Shown here: piece after piece, positions 1 to 10,897 of the stretch
How positions within the stretch are numbered: position 1 is the stretch's first letter
Layout of the letters: every line of letters begins with the position of its first letter
NCBI GenBank assembly: GCA_003662715.1
Contig: QMYO01000030.1
Coordinates: 1 to 10,897 of the forward strand
Length of the DNA: 10,897 nt
Origin: Candidatus Bathyarchaeota archaeon
GTDB taxonomy: Archaea; Thermoproteota; Bathyarchaeia; Bathyarchaeales; Bathyarchaeaceae
Reading direction: 5' to 3'
The notes under the pieces: model-generated
Told to the model about the DNA's origin: nothing
What the model saw: only the letters and a program-made list of their open reading frames with translations
Database searches by the model: none
Translations under genes and position numbers: made by a program

Positions 1-2
1 AG

Positions 3-947
3 GTATGCGGTTCGGTTCTGACAGCGGCGGAGTTAGCTAAGCGCAGCGCCGCAAGGCAATTGCTACCGTATCCCGAAATTAAGGCGCTTGAAAAGAAAGC
101 ACAGCTTGAAGCTGAATTTAGTTGGGAAAAAGCGAAAGCGAAATGCTTAGAACTTGTACCGAAGTTCAAACTGGATATTGCAATCTATGACCTTGTTCAA
201 GCTGGCAAGTTAGAACAGAAGCATCCTTCAGATTACAACCGAACTGAATGGCTGATGATATACCGTGAATGCAAGAAGTATGCGGAGACTGACGGTAACG
301 ACGACGATAACAACGATGGCGGGGGTAATTCCCCGTCATCCCCTGAGTGGAAGGTGAAACTTTCCGAATGTATCGGCTCTGCAAAGAATTTCAGACGTTA
401 TGAGACACTCAAAAGGGATTTACAGCACGAAGGTGTTATCTCCAATGCACATCCGAAGGAATGGGATGATGAAGACTTTGCAAAACTCAAAGAGGCATGT
501 GAACTTGATAAGTCATTGTTCTCAAAAAAGTTAGGATATTGGCAGATAGAGAAAGAACCACACGAAGGAGTTTTTGAACTATTCGGGAAATATGACTTTT
601 GCTTGACCCCATTGCATGACAGATGCTTTTGGTGTGAAGTGAAAGATGTTACACAGGATTGTATCATCCGATGGGGACGATACAGGGTAAAGACAGGATT
701 GTGTTTGGAGTGCAAGCCGAAAGAAGAAGAACTGACAGAAAAGTTTGATAGACTCTACTATAACGAAAGCAAGCGCAAGCTGATAATGGATAGAAAAAAG
801 AACATAACACTGGTGGAAACAGATGGAACAGAGAGGCCCATGACAATCCAAGACGTGGCATTCACGTTTGGGGGCAATGTTGTCATGAAGCTCACTCAAG
901 GGATACAGATAGTCGGCGCGGACATTAGCAAAGTTGAAGTTGACTAA
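3..947 (+). CDS. Unrecognised protein with duplicated motif and zinc-ribbon-like cysteines, 5' end outside window
   Basis: The frame is open to the left edge with no stop, so this is the 3' part of a longer gene. A TTG at 60 is possible, but the residues before it look coding and no clear Shine-Dalgarno precedes it. I do not recognise the family. Numbering from the TTG, two stretches resemble each other: about residues 44-75 and 119-149. Each has a pattern G-(K/V)-(L/I)-x3-HP-x-(D/E)-(Y/W) followed by an acidic/aromatic helix ending near a Cys, which suggests an internal duplication. Between them lies an Asp/Asn/Gly-rich linker (about 77-95). C189-x2-C192 and C215-x2-C218 could form a zinc ribbon. 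The C-terminus is a mixed beta-rich tail. A strong hairpin terminator follows the TAA at once. Function unknown; coding status is secure. Confidence 0.8.
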   Translation, partial: VCGSVLTAAELAKRSAARQLLPYPEIKALEKKAQLEAEFSWEKAKAKCLELVPKFKLDIAIYDLVQAGKLEQKHPSDYNRTEWLMIYRECKKYAETDGNDDDNNDGGGNSPSSPEWKVKLSECIGSAKNFRRYETLKRDLQHEGVISNAHPKEWDDEDFAKLKEACELDKSLFSKKLGYWQIEKEPHEGVFELFGKYDFCLTPLHDRCFWCEVKDVTQDCIIRWGRYRVKTGLCLECKPKEEELTEKFDRLYYNESKRKLIMDRKKNITLVETDGTERPMTIQDVAFTFGGNVVMKLTQGIQIVGADISKVEVD

Positions 948-1769: not shown

Positions 1770-2435
1770 ATGAAAGGCGCAAGACCATTAACAAGAGACG
1801 AGTTTGACAAAGTGCTATCATCCTTCGAGGGCAAGTATGCTGAGCGGAACCGTTGTCTATTCTTACTTGGCACGTCCGCTATGACGAGGGTATCTGAGCT
1901 TGCGGCTTTGACCGTTGGCGACGTATATCAAGGCGGCTTAGTCGTCTCAGAGCTGGTATTGAGAAAGCAAATAGTGAAGGGCAAGAAGGAATCACGCATC
2001 GCCGTCCTACCACCTGAGACTGTCGAGGCACTCAGGAACTTCATAACGTGGAAAAGAGAGCAAGGCGAATCGCTGGCGAAGGATGCACCGCTTTTTGTAT
2101 CCCGACAGGGCAGACATCTCCACAGGATGCAGATACATCGGATTCTGAAGGATGCTTACGCCGCCGCTGGACTAACAGGCAGGCTCACTACTCATACGAT
2201 GAGAAAGACTGGCGGAACTTGGCTTTATGAGGCTACTGGAGATTTGCTACTCACTCAAGAAGCTCTTGGGCATCGGTCACCTGAAACTACGCGGCGATAT
2301 GTGCCTTTGAATCGCCAGCGGATGCGTGTTGCGATGGAGAATTTCTTTGCCGCTGACAGTGACAAAACTACTTTTTTGTCACGCTCAGAGGATAAGGTTA
2401 TTTCGTTCCCAAAAAGAGTTGCGCATGGACGATAA
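1770..2435 (+). CDS. Tyrosine recombinase/integrase, catalytic domain only
   Basis: This enzyme cuts and rejoins DNA at specific sites through a phosphotyrosine link. All expected residues are visible: R40 in the TRVSEL box, a beta-hairpin lysine in the 70-73 cluster (KGKK), H142-x2-R145 (HTMR), H168 (LGHRS) and the nucleophile Y177 (RRYV). At 221 residues it begins directly with the catalytic-domain opening (PLTRDEF). It therefore lacks the N-terminal SAM-like core-binding domain of Xer and phage integrases, as in the FimB/FimE inversion recombinases. GGAGG seven to eight bases upstream supports the ATG. The C-terminal tail past residue 195 is extra. A 250-base gap with a perfect 11-bp inverted repeat follows. 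It probably integrates, excises or inverts DNA of this element; the target is not known. Confidence 0.9.
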   Translation: MKGARPLTRDEFDKVLSSFEGKYAERNRCLFLLGTSAMTRVSELAALTVGDVYQGGLVVSELVLRKQIVKGKKESRIAVLPPETVEALRNFITWKREQGESLAKDAPLFVSRQGRHLHRMQIHRILKDAYAAAGLTGRLTTHTMRKTGGTWLYEATGDLLLTQEALGHRSPETTRRYVPLNRQRMRVAMENFFAADSDKTTFLSRSEDKVISFPKRVAHGR

Positions 2436-3392: not shown

Positions 3393-3599
3393 ATGACAAA
3401 GAGAGCAACTGTCACAGATATAGCGAAATCTTTAGGCGGTATCATTTCGGCAGATACGATTAGAAATTGGGTGGATGCTGGAATCCTACCTGCGGAGAAA
3501 GATTTTCGTGGATGGCGCTGGTTCCCCAAACCAGATGAGACAATTCAGAGAGTAGAAGAGCTATTATATGGGAAGCAAGAACTCGACAAGTTAAAATGA
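3393..3599 (+). CDS. Small MerR/excisionase-like DNA-binding protein
   Basis: The 68-residue protein fits a MerR-type or excisionase-type winged helix: a first helix (TVTDIAKSLG), recognition part (ADTIRNWVDAGILP), then a wing with R39-G-W-R-W-F and a short last helix (ETIQRVEELL). It lacks an effector domain, as in Xis proteins and small element regulators. The ATG at 3393 is preferred over an upstream TTG because AAAGGAG lies nine bases before it and the HTH begins right there. It has its own -10 element upstream. Its position between the recombinase/zinc finger genes and the primase-helicase fits an excisionase (recombination directionality factor) or a regulator of the replication gene; sequence alone does not separate these. 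Confidence 0.75.
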   Translation: MTKRATVTDIAKSLGGIISADTIRNWVDAGILPAEKDFRGWRWFPKPDETIQRVEELLYGKQELDKLK

Positions 3600-3829: not shown

Positions 3830-6631
3830 GTGAAAATGAATGATTTTGATTCAGTAAAAGATAAAGTTGATATAAGAGAGTTTATCGACCAAGAAACAGG
3901 AGCACAGGCTAAAAAAGTTGGTACGGATACTTTTAGGATTAACCCTTGTCCCTTTTGCAATCACGATGATTGCTTTACAATCCACGCTAACACCAATAGC
4001 GCACACTGTTATAGTTGTGGGTTTAGTGGAGACGTATTCAATTTTGCGAGGGAATATCACAACTTGACTAGCAATTACGAGGCGCTTAGGTATGTGGCTG
4101 AGAAGATAGGTTACACGATAACGAATGAGAATACAGCCAAGCAAGATGCTAAATTGCTTGATATAAAACAATTAGCGGTTGGTTATTATCATAACAATCT
4201 AATCGAAAAATGCAAAGATGAACCTATCAACTATCTTCAAGATAAACAGGAACATGAAACGTCTGTATTGGAATATCAGATAGGGGTTAGAAAGCATAGC
4301 TTAGACATATTAAAGAAAGAACGTGTCGGCTATGCCGATGGTAAATTTGTGGAACATGCTAAATCAAAGGGATATGGCATAGAAGATTTGCGCAAGGCTG
4401 GACTGGCAAACAAGCAAGGTCAAGACTATTTCCCAAAAGGTGTTTATGTCTATCCGCATTTTGTCTATGGGCAAATTTCCCACTTCAGCCAAAAGGATCC
4501 GATGAAGGCTATCGAATTTCAATCCAAAAAAGAACATCGGCATCCACACTGGCGCTTTTATGGGCAATCAGCTATCAATGCTGATGATTTAATCGCTGTT
4601 GAAGGTGAAAATGACCGATTAAAGGTAATTGATAAGGCTAAGTGCCCTCATGTCATTGCTACGATTGGGCAACTATCGGAGGCTCAAATTGAATACTTGA
4701 AGCAGAAACGGAAGGGCAAGCGGACTTATTTATGTTTTGACAATGATAATAGCGGGCGCGAATATACAAATAAGGTCATTTCAACACTCGGCGGATACGA
4801 TATTTTCGTCATGCGATTTTGCCCTTTGTGGAAGGACGTTGACGAGCTGCTATCTTGCGCTGATGAACCACAGGAAGTATTTGAGCAATTAAAAGAGAAT
4901 GCGATAGATCAATACGAATATCAGTTGAAGTCCATTCCTGAAGATACAGAGTTGTATGATGTTCTCGATACAATCAAACCAATTCTGAAAAACTTGCTTG
5001 ACCACAAAGGCAAAGCGCATGTGGAGGCTTTTGTTAAAACGAAAGTCAAAGAGCGCTTCGATTTCACACTTGATGAATTGAAGGCAGTTACACGATTGGC
5101 TAAGGAGCTGGAGAAAGCAGAAAGCAAGTCTGATTTGCCTGGCGAAGAAAAAGAAGTGACTTTGGTCTGGACTGACAAACCAATAAGGTTAGATTTCTCC
5201 CTGGCGCAGGATTTTGTTGATGGTATTCTACACTATACAATTTATTTGCCAGTGGATATTGAAGGGCATACTCAGTTGATGCCGCATTTGATTACGTCGG
5301 AACGCGAGGCAGTTTTAATCACCAGAGAAGTGCTGGAAGAACGGAACATCTACGTAAACGAAATTGCAATGCCGTCAAATATGAATCGTTGGTCAGTAGA
5401 TACGCAAACAGATTTCAGTGTGCATCACTACCTGAATAAAGAATGTGAAGTTGGGAGCTTTGCAATATACCGTGATTTACATAGAACTTTTACTAACTTT
5501 CTCTGGCATCCAGATTTAAGTTTAGCAACCATCCTATCACTATGGACTATGGAATCCTACGTGTTCATGATATTTGATAGCATTGGATACTTAGCGGCGG
5601 TTGGCACGAAAAGGACTGGCAAAACAAGGATGTTGGAACTACTTGGGGAAGTAGCTTTCAACGCCATCAAGCTGGGCGGGCAAAGTGACGCATACACCTT
5701 CCGGAAAATAGAGAATGATAGAGTGACGTTGCTGATGGACGAAGCTGATAGGTTAGCAAGACAGGCGAAGGCTGGGGGTAGTAATATTATTGAGCATCTG
5801 CGGGACGGCTACAAAAGGACGGGGCAAACAGGATTATGCGAGGGTGAAGCGCATAGACCAACGGAGTTTAGCACCTATAGTATGAAAGCATTTGCCAATG
5901 TGGAGGGCGTTGAGGAGATGCTGGGAGACCGTGTCATCGTCCTGCTTCCAGAGCGCAAGCCATTGGATGAACCGGTTGCTAGATTGCTTATGCGGAGAGA
6001 GCGAAGTAGTTTCCAACTACTGCGGAACAAGCTCTATGTTTGGGCTTTAACTCATGCCAAACAGATTCACGATGCTTATGTAAATCTTGAGATACCTGAC
6101 GAATATAAACTGTTCATTTCAGACAGGGAAGAAGAGATTTGGGCTGGGCTTCTGGCAATTGCGAAGGTGATTGATGATGATAAAGAAGGAGTAAAGTTGT
6201 TCAAGGAACTGTTAGACATCGCTAAGACGAATAAGCAGCGGAAGGTGGCAGAGGAATCGACAGGGAGTATTGACGCACAATTCCTTGAAGCGCTGCTTGA
6301 TTTTTTGCTAAACGGTGAACCCAATGTAGAATATGTAGATGGCAAGCCATACTTTCGCCAGTACGAGATTGAACGGCATATCGCTGATTTCTTGGGCTGG
6401 GTTAAAGTTTCTAGCACGCGCTTTGTGTCAAAACACTTGAAACGGCTTCGCATTATTGATGATGTGGGAACCGACCGGATACGCAAAGTCGTTAGCGATT
6501 ATCCTATAATTACAGAGAAAGATGGAGAGAGGGTAACCGAATATGTCAAAAAACGAATTGCCTTATACCATCTTGACATAGAGCGAGTTAAAGAGGTTGC
6601 TGTGAGGTACGACGTGCAAGTGACGGGGTAA
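3830..6631 (+). CDS. Primase-helicase replication protein (zinc finger, Toprim, DUF3631-like ATPase)
   Basis: A 933-residue fusion that should make primers and unwind DNA at the element's origin. N-terminal CHC2-like finger: C40-x2-C43 and C60-x2-C63, with Cys in place of the DnaG His. Toprim domain: E258 (AVEGEND), D304-x-D306 (CFDNDNSG) and KDVDELL at 335-341. After a linker comes a P-loop ATPase: Walker A GTKRTGKT (592-599), Walker B LLMDEAD (634-640), then DGYKRTG, EFSTYSMKAFANV and GDRVIVLLPER. This order matches DUF3631-type plasmid and phage proteins. R701 may be an arginine finger. The last 120 residues are charged and helical and could bind the origin. The GTG at 3830 is chosen because AGGAGGT lies eight bases upstream; an ATG at 3836 is the alternative. 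The iteron cluster follows immediately. Overall plan resembles P4 alpha protein. Confidence 0.9.
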   Translation: MKMNDFDSVKDKVDIREFIDQETGAQAKKVGTDTFRINPCPFCNHDDCFTIHANTNSAHCYSCGFSGDVFNFAREYHNLTSNYEALRYVAEKIGYTITNENTAKQDAKLLDIKQLAVGYYHNNLIEKCKDEPINYLQDKQEHETSVLEYQIGVRKHSLDILKKERVGYADGKFVEHAKSKGYGIEDLRKAGLANKQGQDYFPKGVYVYPHFVYGQISHFSQKDPMKAIEFQSKKEHRHPHWRFYGQSAINADDLIAVEGENDRLKVIDKAKCPHVIATIGQLSEAQIEYLKQKRKGKRTYLCFDNDNSGREYTNKVISTLGGYDIFVMRFCPLWKDVDELLSCADEPQEVFEQLKENAIDQYEYQLKSIPEDTELYDVLDTIKPILKNLLDHKGKAHVEAFVKTKVKERFDFTLDELKAVTRLAKELEKAESKSDLPGEEKEVTLVWTDKPIRLDFSLAQDFVDGILHYTIYLPVDIEGHTQLMPHLITSEREAVLITREVLEERNIYVNEIAMPSNMNRWSVDTQTDFSVHHYLNKECEVGSFAIYRDLHRTFTNFLWHPDLSLATILSLWTMESYVFMIFDSIGYLAAVGTKRTGKTRMLELLGEVAFNAIKLGGQSDAYTFRKIENDRVTLLMDEADRLARQAKAGGSNIIEHLRDGYKRTGQTGLCEGEAHRPTEFSTYSMKAFANVEGVEEMLGDRVIVLLPERKPLDEPVARLLMRRERSSFQLLRNKLYVWALTHAKQIHDAYVNLEIPDEYKLFISDREEEIWAGLLAIAKVIDDDKEGVKLFKELLDIAKTNKQRKVAEESTGSIDAQFLEALLDFLLNGEPNVEYVDGKPYFRQYEIERHIADFLGWVKVSSTRFVSKHLKRLRIIDDVGTDRIRKVVSDYPIITEKDGERVTEYVKKRIALYHLDIERVKEVAVRYDVQVTG

Positions 6632-6743
6632 CCAAAATGAAGAATCCAGATTTAACAGGGGTTCTTGGCAAATTTCTGACGTGGTGACGTGGTACTGACG
6701 TGCAAAAATTTTTACCACGTCAGAGATAAAAATCCAATAGTAG

Positions 6744-6752
6744 TGTGGATTA
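6744..6752 (-). promoter_or_regulatory. Near-consensus DnaA box
   Basis: Read on the minus strand, TAATCCACA differs from the DnaA box TTATCCACA at one base. It lies between the left iteron cluster and the AT-rich core, where host DnaA would help opening. A single box with one mismatch is modest evidence. Confidence 0.4.
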
Positions 6753-6771
6753 AAAGGACACTGTGACGTTC

Positions 6772-6872
6772 AAATATAATATTTTTAGATAGATAGATAG
6801 ATAAATAAAAAATATATACCTTATCAGCTAAGTGAGGGGTGTTATATTTTTTAACTTTTCATATATTGGAAT
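6772..6872. other. AT-rich putative unwinding element with AGAT tetranucleotide repeat
   Basis: The stretch is strongly AT-rich, with TATAATATTTTT at 6775-6786, four tandem AGAT units (6787-6802) running into AAATAAA, then ATATATACC and a second T-rich block. It sits between iteron clusters, as expected for the duplex-unwinding part of an origin. It contains no gene. Confidence 0.5.
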
Positions 6873-6914
6873 TTTGCACGTCACCACGTCAGTCAGTGGG
6901 TTGAGATACGATAG

Positions 6915-6935
6915 AACACAGTCACAGCCTGTGTT
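6915..6935. repeat. 7-bp hairpin inside the iteron region
   Basis: AACACAG (6915-6921) and CTGTGTT (6929-6935) pair perfectly around a seven-base loop, just before the right iteron cluster. It could be a primer-recognition or protein site, or a minor hairpin. Confidence 0.4.
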
Positions 6936-7009
6936 TGGGGTTCTGACGTGCAAACTGACGTGGTGCTGACGTGGTAAATTTGCACGTCAGAAATTCGGGA
7001 GACCACATC

Positions 7010-7495
7010 ATGACGAATGAACTCTACAAAACGGCAAATGCCCGGACCAGTTTCATTTGTGAGAGCTTACTTGGATACACTGCGCAAGATGGCAAGCAGT
7101 ATGACAAGATAGCGCTGGTGTTGGTGTTGCGTGGGGCTGACAACAAAGCTCAGCAGACGGTGCGGTACTTCTTGGATGTACCAACGGCGAAAGTGTTGGC
7201 GCATGACTTGTTTGCCGGGGAGCTGCGTGATGAGTTCAAAGAATACAAGCAGCACAACGGCAAGCAGCGGGCGTTGAGTATCAAGCAACATGAGAACGTA
7301 TATCGGGTCTCAATTATGAATAGCAATGGCGGTGAGGATAAACATAGCTTGTACTTTGATATTACGGCATGGCAAGCACGGGAACTGGCGATAAGCGTGC
7401 TCGACCATATAAAGCATTACGAGCTTGCAAGGCTAATGGTGTTGCATCTCAACAAGGATGGTGACAATGGGCATACTCAGCGCACTCGAATTTGA
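7010..7495 (+). CDS. Unknown small protein with internal duplication, possible ssDNA-binding fold
   Basis: The 161-residue product is not recognised. Two halves look alike. Residues 32-68 and 97-134 each have a hydrophobic strand, a Gly/Asn-rich turn, a (Y)F-D-(V/I)-(P/T)-(T/A) strand, then a helix of the pattern xxAxxLAxxxL. A duplicated beta-sheet-plus-helix unit recalls PC4/Whirly-type single-stranded DNA binders, but this is inference from pattern only. The ATG at 7010 is chosen because GGGAG lies eight bases before it; an in-frame GTG at 6971 would lie inside an iteron and lacks a ribosome site. The gene starts about 20 bases after the last iteron and overlaps the next gene, so both are probably co-transcribed replication accessories. 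Confidence 0.75.
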   Translation: MTNELYKTANARTSFICESLLGYTAQDGKQYDKIALVLVLRGADNKAQQTVRYFLDVPTAKVLAHDLFAGELRDEFKEYKQHNGKQRALSIKQHENVYRVSIMNSNGGEDKHSLYFDITAWQARELAISVLDHIKHYELARLMVLHLNKDGDNGHTQRTRI

Positions 7496-8492: not shown

Positions 8493-8879
8493 ATGAGCTT
8501 GAAAACAGCTACAATGATTGTAATAGTTTGTATTATACTTTGTATTATACTAAGCTTTGTAATTAATTTTTTACCTTTGGATTCTACTCTTCAGTTGGAT
8601 TCTACTCTTCAGTTTTTACGTTGGTATGCTATTATTGAGGCTATTAAGAACTATTTGTTTTACTATAGTTTTGCGTTTTTAGCAATATTAGAACCACAGA
8701 GGGCTCAGAGGGAACACAGAGAGCAGAGAGAAATTCCAGAACGAATATCTGAGAGAATGGGATTTTTCACAAGTCCGCGCCACGAGCGAACTTGTGAAAA
8801 ATATAATTGCTCAAATTTTTCTTCGCGCCATCTTTGTGTTCTTTGTGTCTTCGTGGTTCAGATTTTCGCAAAAGTATAG
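8493..8879 (+). CDS. Small membrane protein whose 3' end is replaced by a palindromic repeat
   Basis: Residues 7-28 form one transmembrane helix and about 46-66 a second. From residue 67 the reading frame enters the palindromic element at 8691, giving the low-complexity EPQRAQREHREQRE and, later, HLCVLCVFVVQIF, a typical accidental translation of this repeat. The original C-terminus has therefore probably been lost or the gene extended. Two exact tandem duplications lie in its 5' half (12 bp at 8527-8550, 18 bp at 8577-8612), both in frame. AAAGG about eight bases before the ATG supports the start. I do not recognise the family. The first 66 residues are probably genuine; the rest may not be functional. 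Confidence 0.55.
   Translation: MSLKTATMIVIVCIILCIILSFVINFLPLDSTLQLDSTLQFLRWYAIIEAIKNYLFYYSFAFLAILEPQRAQREHREQREIPERISERMGFFTSPRHERTCEKYNCSNFSSRHLCVLCVFVVQIFAKV
8527..8550 (+). repeat. Tandem duplication, 2 x 12 bp
   Basis: TTTGTATTATAC occurs twice back to back (8527-8538, 8539-8550). It is in frame within the membrane protein and doubles the CIIL part of the first transmembrane helix. Confidence 0.85.
8577..8612 (+). repeat. Tandem duplication, 2 x 18 bp
   Basis: TTGGATTCTACTCTTCAG occurs twice back to back (8577-8594, 8595-8612). It is in frame and yields LDSTLQ twice in the loop after the first transmembrane helix. Confidence 0.9.
8691..8859. mobile_element. Dispersed palindromic (MITE-like) repeat inserted in the membrane protein gene
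   Basis: The ends are GAACCAC (8691-8697) and GTGGTTC (8853-8859). Inside them the arms continue as an imperfect inverted repeat: CACAGAGGGCTCAGAGG-type on the left, CTTTGTGTTCTTTGTGTC-type on the right. The centre holds a perfect 13-bp hairpin. Repeats of this ACCACAGAG / TCTTCGTGGTT type are known as dispersed, non-coding elements in many environmental bacteria. No transposase is encoded and no clear target duplication is visible. Confidence 0.65.
8762..8802. repeat. Central 13-bp perfect hairpin of the palindromic repeat
   Basis: ATTTTTCACAAGT (8762-8774) and ACTTGTGAAAAAT (8790-8802) are perfect inverted copies around a 15-base GC-rich loop. It forms the core of the larger palindromic element. 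Confidence 0.8.
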
Positions 8880-10065: not shown

Positions 10066-10236
10066 ATGAAACAACACAAAGGTAGAAATCTAAGACGGGT
10101 AAATTTGACAATACCTGATGATATTTTCAAATGGTTGAAGATACAAGCTGCGAAAGCGGATATGAGTATTAGCTTGTATTTGACAAGGATGTTAGAAAAA
10201 GAGAAGAATTTTATCGAATTATCTGAAAAAAGTTAA
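10066..10236 (+). CDS. Ribbon-helix-helix repressor, 56 residues
   Basis: The product fits the MetJ/Arc/CopG fold: a basic N-terminus, a DNA-contacting strand RRVNLTIP (10-17), helix A DDIFKWLKIQAAKAD (18-32), the turn MSIS and helix B SLYLTRMLEKEK (36-47). Such proteins bind the operator as dimers. It is short, like plasmid copy-control CopG proteins. The ATG at 10066 is preceded by purines (GATAGAAA) but no clear Shine-Dalgarno, and the transcript leader would be very short. Nearly identical consensus promoters flank it, so it most likely represses both itself and the downstream leader/SWIM gene. No toxin gene adjoins it, so an antitoxin role is less likely. Confidence 0.8.
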   Translation: MKQHKGRNLRRVNLTIPDDIFKWLKIQAAKADMSISLYLTRMLEKEKNFIELSEKS

Positions 10237-10397: not shown

Positions 10398-10897
10398 ATG
10401 AAGTTAGCATTTTCACAATCGGATATTATAACGACTGCTAAAAGTCTTGGATTACCAACCGATGGTTTTATCCAGAGACGTATAGCACGTGCATTAGACT
10501 TAGTGCAATCCAACAAGGTAGATAAAATTGACGATGAAATTTTCCGTGTTCATTCGCAGTATGAACCGAATAAGCATTACATCGTCAACGTCAATCATGG
10601 GCATCCATCATGTGATTGTCCTGATGGTAAGCGGACTATCTGGTGTAAGCATCAGATAGCAGCTCGGTTGTTTGCACAAAAGCAACCACGTTTCAAGATA
10701 TGTGATGATACCGAAAATAGCTATCTTGGACGTGGACGTTGGATTGTTTACGACTATGCTTTCCGCAAGGGATACGTAATATGCCGTAATAGCAAGGGTG
10801 AGTTGGAGTGTCCATGCTTCAAGGAAAATTGCATTCACCGAAAGATAGTCAATGACTGGATAGCTAACAACGGTAAGCGAATAGTCAATGAGTGTGG
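10398..10897 (+). CDS. Double SWIM zinc finger protein, 3' end outside window
   Basis: At least 166 residues; the frame is open to the right edge. Residues 25-66 are a helix plus beta-hairpin leading into SWIM finger one: C72-x-C74-x8-C83-x-H85 (SCDCPD...WCKH). A second beta unit (RWIVYDYAF, VICRNSKG) leads to finger two: C138-x-C140-x4-C145-x-H147 (CPCFKENCIH). SWIM fingers bind DNA or proteins and occur in transposases, bacterial SWI/SNF helicases and Shu2-type recombination proteins; two in tandem in a small protein is uncommon. AAAGGGG seven bases before the ATG supports the start. It lies behind the RHH-flanked promoter and attenuator-like leader, so it is probably a tightly dosed element protein, perhaps in replication or recombination. 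I do not know the family. Confidence 0.85.
   Translation, partial: MKLAFSQSDIITTAKSLGLPTDGFIQRRIARALDLVQSNKVDKIDDEIFRVHSQYEPNKHYIVNVNHGHPSCDCPDGKRTIWCKHQIAARLFAQKQPRFKICDDTENSYLGRGRWIVYDYAFRKGYVICRNSKGELECPCFKENCIHRKIVNDWIANNGKRIVNEC

Follow-up and report, generated by a model that had tools for sequence, protein, structure and literature searches.

A candidate two-sided iteron origin beside a primase-helicase gene of a small, probably circular mobile element

Introduction

The stretch of DNA considered here, 10,897 bases of contig QMYO01000030.1 (referred to throughout as the window), carries a dense cluster of the short repeat, or iteron, TGACGTGS immediately downstream of a gene for a primase-helicase. 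This cluster, at 6671-6995, is likely to be where replication of a small mobile element starts; the element is probably circular, with a length of about 11.2 kb, and the protein encoded upstream would be its initiator. The reading is supported by the placement of ten iterons, where 0.35 would be expected, in a single intergenic region 3' of the primase-helicase gene, and by the two iteron sets, which share a duplicated module and flank a core of 25% GC. It is further supported by the origins of phage-inducible chromosomal islands (PICIs), which have the same placement and layout, and by a Desulfocapsa plasmid in which a gene with a related primase half is followed by an array of another word. 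The iteron word, the type of helicase and the Whirly-like neighbour form a new combination, while the layout itself is known from phage-parasite islands.

In the proposed mechanism, the CHC2-Toprim-AAA+ protein would bind the iterons that flank the AT-rich core, probably with its C-terminal domain, and its AAA+ part would open that core. The primase half would lay primers that a host polymerase extends, and the Whirly-fold protein encoded by the next gene would coat the single strands.

The iteron cluster and its architecture

The features on which the argument depends are as follows.

3830..6631, + strand: gene for the primase-helicase, with a CHC2 zinc finger, a Toprim primase, an AAA+ region with a DUF3631 match, and a C-terminal domain that may be winged-helix-like
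6671..6727: left iteron set, exact copies at 6677+, 6685+, 6696+ and 6715- (order + + + -)
6728..6870: AT-rich core, candidate melting region by its GC content and tandem repeat
6871..6995: right iteron set, exact copies as an inverted tandem at 6876- and 6884-, and as a second +++- block at 6944+, 6956+, 6967+ and 6982-

TGACGTGS is present in ten exact copies, all in 6677-6989, and is found nowhere else in the window. Dinucleotide shuffles of the whole window yielded a mean of 0.35 and a maximum of 4 copies (200 shuffles), and Markov shuffles of 6632-7009 alone, which follow the local composition, yielded a mean of 0.021 and a maximum of 2 (5000 shuffles). The primase-helicase stop, the last base of which is 6631, is separated from the first iteron by 45 bases, the iteron's first base being the 46th after 6631. 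The preceding base is C in 8 of the 10 copies, the remaining two being the second copies of 8-bp tandems. The GC content falls to 0.25 in the core, against 0.42 in 6671-6727 and 0.48 in 6871-6995, and the core contains a (TAGA)5.5 tandem repeat at 6786-6807. A first-pass annotation of this DNA had described ten 8-mers in both orientations within 313 bases, two head-to-head pairs, and an AT-rich core with AGAT repeats, directly 3' of a 933-residue primase-helicase gene; the exact counts, the pairs at 6696/6715 and 6967/6982, the core and the open reading frame (ORF) at 3830-6631 all agree with that description. It had also counted DnaA boxes in the pattern typical of iteron plasmids, but 6600-7100 contains no canonical TTWTNCACA, only three matches with one mismatch.

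The two sets are related in more than their word. When aligned, the left and right +++- blocks share 44 identities over 52 aligned bases, with 8 mismatches and 10 gaps, and the alignment score of 60 compares with at most 32 in 500 letter shuffles; judging from this alignment, the blocks are diverged copies of one module. The inverted tandem (6876-, 6884-) is complementary to the first tandem over 16 of 16 bases, and 6671-6683 is complementary to 6983-6995 over 13 of 13. The left head-to-head pair folds as a hairpin that none of 200 shuffles equalled. The fold of the right block was likewise unmatched in 200 shuffles; in its best form, copy 6982 pairs with 6944 and not with 6967. The single-stranded fold of 6665-7000 is far more stable than those of 100 shuffles (z -8.35), and no known RNA family or tRNA was found in the window. 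In open full text, the word TGACGTGG was not found together with "iteron".

The upstream primase-helicase

The ORF at 3830-6631 encodes 933 amino acids, although an in-frame ATG at 3836 better matches the starts of the relatives P0002 and P0003. Residues 2-429 constitute a DnaG-type primase. In the helicase half, DUF3631 is the sole Pfam match, and this region is poorly modelled in the predicted structure; in the C-terminal domain, the predicted secondary structure suggests a winged helix. Four further relatives (P0004-P0007) retain 67-73% identity at residues 541-815 but only 20-23% in the primase half, which suggests that the primase and initiator parts can be swapped.

Close relatives were found neither in viral contigs (queried with the window primase, A1, P0003, A3 and the Desulfocapsa protein), where the scans gave only two distant loci, L001 and L002, nor in genome contigs (queried with A1 and A3). 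Searches by tblastn gave distant matches in 31 plasmid records and 37 phage records, none of them with 80% coverage.

Comparison with known replicons

The closest described arrangement is that of the PICIs. In the parts of PMC6092414 drawn on here, the PICI origin lies immediately 3' of the replication initiation gene and always comprises two iteron sets around an AT-rich region, an organisation that, by that account, no other known bacterial replicon shared; a pri-rep-ori segment sustained a plasmid. The window resembles these islands, including the Staphylococcus aureus pathogenicity islands (SaPIs), in having its origin candidate 3' of a primase-helicase, two-sided iterons, an AT-rich core and an integrase upstream (PMC6092414, same parts). 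It differs in the DUF3631 helicase half, in the Whirly-fold gene beside the site, and in probably being an 11.2-kb circle. Family scans of the window proteins covered ten larger ORFs, and among these no clear match to a PICI terminase small subunit, capsid or interference gene was found. Weak matches to terminase small subunits, at the level of a helix-turn-helix (HTH), were given by a 68-residue protein (E 0.0047) and a 133-residue protein (E 1.7e-4 among 72 families); the NCBIfam TerS model scored 18.6 bits against a cut-off of 120.

The first-pass annotation had instead proposed a self-contained unit like that of satellite phage P4. To our knowledge, the iteron word of the window is not that of P4. 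According to the passages of PMC4234260 used here, P4 alpha has a Toprim-type primase, and its winged helix binds the origin repeats, followed by unwinding and priming. The window protein is alike in joining DnaG-type primase and helicase parts in one chain, and P4 alpha binds repeats of its own origin (PMC4234260, same passages); the helicase match of the window protein is a different one. The P4 markers psu, sid, delta and epsilon, as named in the part of PMC8628076 consulted, have no PHROGs match in the ten ORFs, and membership of P4 fails on them. Of the proposal, a self-contained replicon whose origin belongs to the adjacent primase-helicase is supported by layout, Desulfocapsa array and gene ends. 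The likeness to P4 is only partly supported: the DnaG/Toprim-type primase speaks for it, whereas the ten ORFs gave no P4 marker, the helicase half matches DUF3631 alone and no canonical DnaA box is nearby. The layout fits the PICI description better than that of P4, and by analogy the mechanism probably works like that of both.

Two other types of replicon are relevant. In the archaeal plasmid pRN1, according to the same passages of PMC4234260, the essential origin directly follows the primase-helicase gene and uses a stem-loop. The location of this origin is shared with the window; the archaeo-eukaryotic primase and the stem-loop without iterons are not. Of the marks of classical iteron plasmids, no RepA/RepB-type Rep family appears among the Pfam matches of the ten ORFs, and 6600-7100 lacks a canonical DnaA box.

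The Desulfocapsa plasmid

A CHC2 zinc finger protein of the Desulfocapsa sulfexigens plasmid NC_020305 is related to the window protein over residues 3-420 (hhalign probability 100, 32% identity), and its gene, too, has a mixed-orientation repeat array in the 3' flank. The word there is GGTGCA. Counting both orientations, the 13.3-kb locus has 14 copies, and 12 of them lie in this flank, against an expectation of 0.41 and a maximum of 4 (1000 shuffles); shuffles of the whole locus gave a mean of 5.3 and a maximum of 13. Across the whole 36.7-kb plasmid there are seven forward close pairs, every one of them in the flank, and a reversed-pattern control gave 0 forward and 1 reverse. The plasmid is unlike the window in its word, in a helicase half that hhalign did not align, and in an annotated initiator with a different repeat cluster near it.

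At L113, another helicase locus, no outstanding repeats were found at the gene's 3' side. In a Pseudomonas sp. FeN3W plasmid (L114 1351-4475), an array of 34 CCATGGA copies (shuffle maximum 9) lies on the 5' side of a DUF3631-like helicase gene, with ParA/ParB-like genes beyond the array.

Evidence for a probably circular element

The two ends of the window carry parts of what may be one gene:

1..947, + strand (ORF 3-944): C-terminal part of a gene interrupted by the window start, of the same family as that at the other end
10398..10897, + strand (ORF 10398-10895): N-terminal (SWIM) part of a gene that the window end interrupts

These ORFs match complementary N- and C-terminal parts of one SWIM protein family. 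Six aligned relatives, of 41 found (lengths 451-508), have 108-115 residues between the two parts. Most simply read, the element is probably circular and about 11.2 kb long, some 330 bases of it lying beyond the window. As the window ends show no terminal repeats or overlap, it is the gene ends that argue for the circle; a linear element with two incomplete gene copies is a possible alternative. If the window is most of a circle, as the gene evidence indicates, this supports a self-contained replicon. The 41 relatives include one from a metagenome-assembled genome (MAG) of Candidatus Poribacteria and one from a Deltaproteobacteria MAG, a mere hint of the host.

Weighing the origin against other explanations

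Several results weigh against an origin at 6671-6995 with the upstream protein as initiator. In sequence, the C-terminal domain that would bind the iterons matches no known DNA-binding domain. A GC-skew analysis, suggested in the first-pass annotation as a check, shows no switch at the site, the skew being positive on both sides; since nearly all genes in the window point one way, this test is uninformative here. In the Desulfocapsa plasmid, the word GGTGCA was picked after looking, and in an unbiased test the best 7-mer (6 copies) does not exceed the shuffle maximum of 7, with the best 8-mer reaching 5 copies against a maximum of 4. The weakly similar genes of L115 and L116 have no such array in their 3' flanks.

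The Desulfocapsa plasmid also has a cluster of CTATCAC, with up to 9 copies per 400 bases (L112 3776-4250), near its annotated replication initiation gene. This too weighs against the origin reading and, together with the GGTGCA array 3' of the primase gene, speaks for a rival one: the site in the window could serve copy-number control, or be a second, primase-dependent start, with the main origin elsewhere, as may be the case in that plasmid. The window, however, has no second outstanding repeat cluster, its next best peak being a 7-mer with 4 copies, and none of the ten ORFs matched a classical Rep family, so that we regard an accessory site as improbable. The position of the right set, whose end is 15 bases short of the putative start codon at 7010, would suit an operator array that controls the Whirly gene there and perhaps later genes, with a regulator or the Whirly protein itself as its binder; the first descriptions of plant Whirly proteins were as regulators of transcription (PBF-2, named in the title of 1l3a). 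Two sets lying 160 bases apart, an AT-rich core and a duplicated module nevertheless exceed the needs of an operator, and with 1 promoter-like site in 6500-7100 against 1.5 expected, this explanation is unlikely.

Plasmid centromeres can be repeat arrays, and a partition site might be bound by a small protein such as the ribbon-helix-helix (RHH) protein at 10066. That gene is 3 kb distant, and no ParA- or ParM-type ATPase was found in the ten ORFs, which leaves partition very unlikely. The 13 complementary bases at 6671-6683 and 6983-6995 could also be the inverted ends of a small, non-autonomous inserted element, a reading to which we give hardly any credence, as the sequence is single-copy in the window and an origin better accounts for its duplicated module and its position.

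Similar clusters in viral contigs

A search of viral contigs for three direct copies of the iteron word returned 101 stretches. Ten of them (L017, L022, L025, L029, L040, L041, L046, L079, L093, L103) have mixed orientation in DNA of 41-47% GC within contigs of 53-56% GC, and these contigs form one phage group, with blastn matches in 44 of 45 pairs. Kinship of the window with this group was rejected: none of ten window proteins matches it at E 1e-3, and as the group is itself a single related one, the shared word is taken as coincidence or convergence. The group's own mixed-orientation TGACGTGC cluster in AT-richer DNA (L022 2878-3099, L029 6444-6665, L046 5050-5147 and seven more) is possibly its origin or control site; L022 and L029 also encode proteins that by eye are terminase- and SF3-like. 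The +,+,- pattern occurs in 7 stretches, against 1 for one permuted control. Their contigs have 57-73% GC, and L104/L110 and L108/L109 each seem to be one sequence entered two times. None was retained as a layout relative, as by eye none resembles the layout of the window.

The Whirly-fold neighbour and other genes

The remaining genes of interest are listed below.

1770..2435, + strand: tyrosine recombinase, 221 residues, catalytic part only (Phage_integrase E 8e-25; XerC model positions 106-288 of 295)
3393..3599, + strand: MerR/HTH_17-like DNA-binding protein, 68 residues, possible regulator or excisionase (HTH_17 E 1.8e-4, MerR E 3.5e-4, both below curated cut-offs)
7010..7495, + strand: protein of 161 residues with a predicted Whirly fold, possible single-stranded DNA-binding protein of the replicon
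10066-10236: short CopG/RHH-like protein, by profile match

The Whirly fold is known mainly from plant organelles. In the 161-residue protein it is predicted over residues 1-146, by comparison with plant WHY1, WHY2 and WHY3. Identity to the plant proteins is 9-14%, and the protein differs from them in being encoded by what appears to be a bacterial mobile element; no Whirly profile occurs among the Pfam matches of its family (11 members, E up to 1). From the predicted fold, a role as the single-strand binding protein of the replicon is possible. A relative of this protein (P0045) and one of the primase (P0002) each come from a 7789-base contig, probably the same one. P0051, of 92 residues, shares 83% identity with the Whirly-fold protein over the latter's first quarter and shows no relation to it thereafter; it is perhaps a broken copy. 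Elsewhere in the window, a perfect 18-base tandem repeat (2.1 copies) lies at 8577-8614, within a small ORF resembling a membrane protein.

Implications

We tentatively propose that uncultured bacteria harbour a family of small circular elements with an exchangeable replication module, which comprises a DUF3631-type AAA+ initiator joined to a DnaG-type primase, a two-sided origin with a module-specific iteron word, and, encoded beside that origin, a dedicated Whirly-fold protein for single-stranded DNA. The analysis provides a precise pair of candidate origin and initiator for an element whose only sources here are of the metagenome type, and it places a protein of predicted Whirly fold beside a probable bacterial replication origin. 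If the reading of an exchangeable module is true, a Whirly-type protein would here be serving a defined origin in a bacterial replicon.
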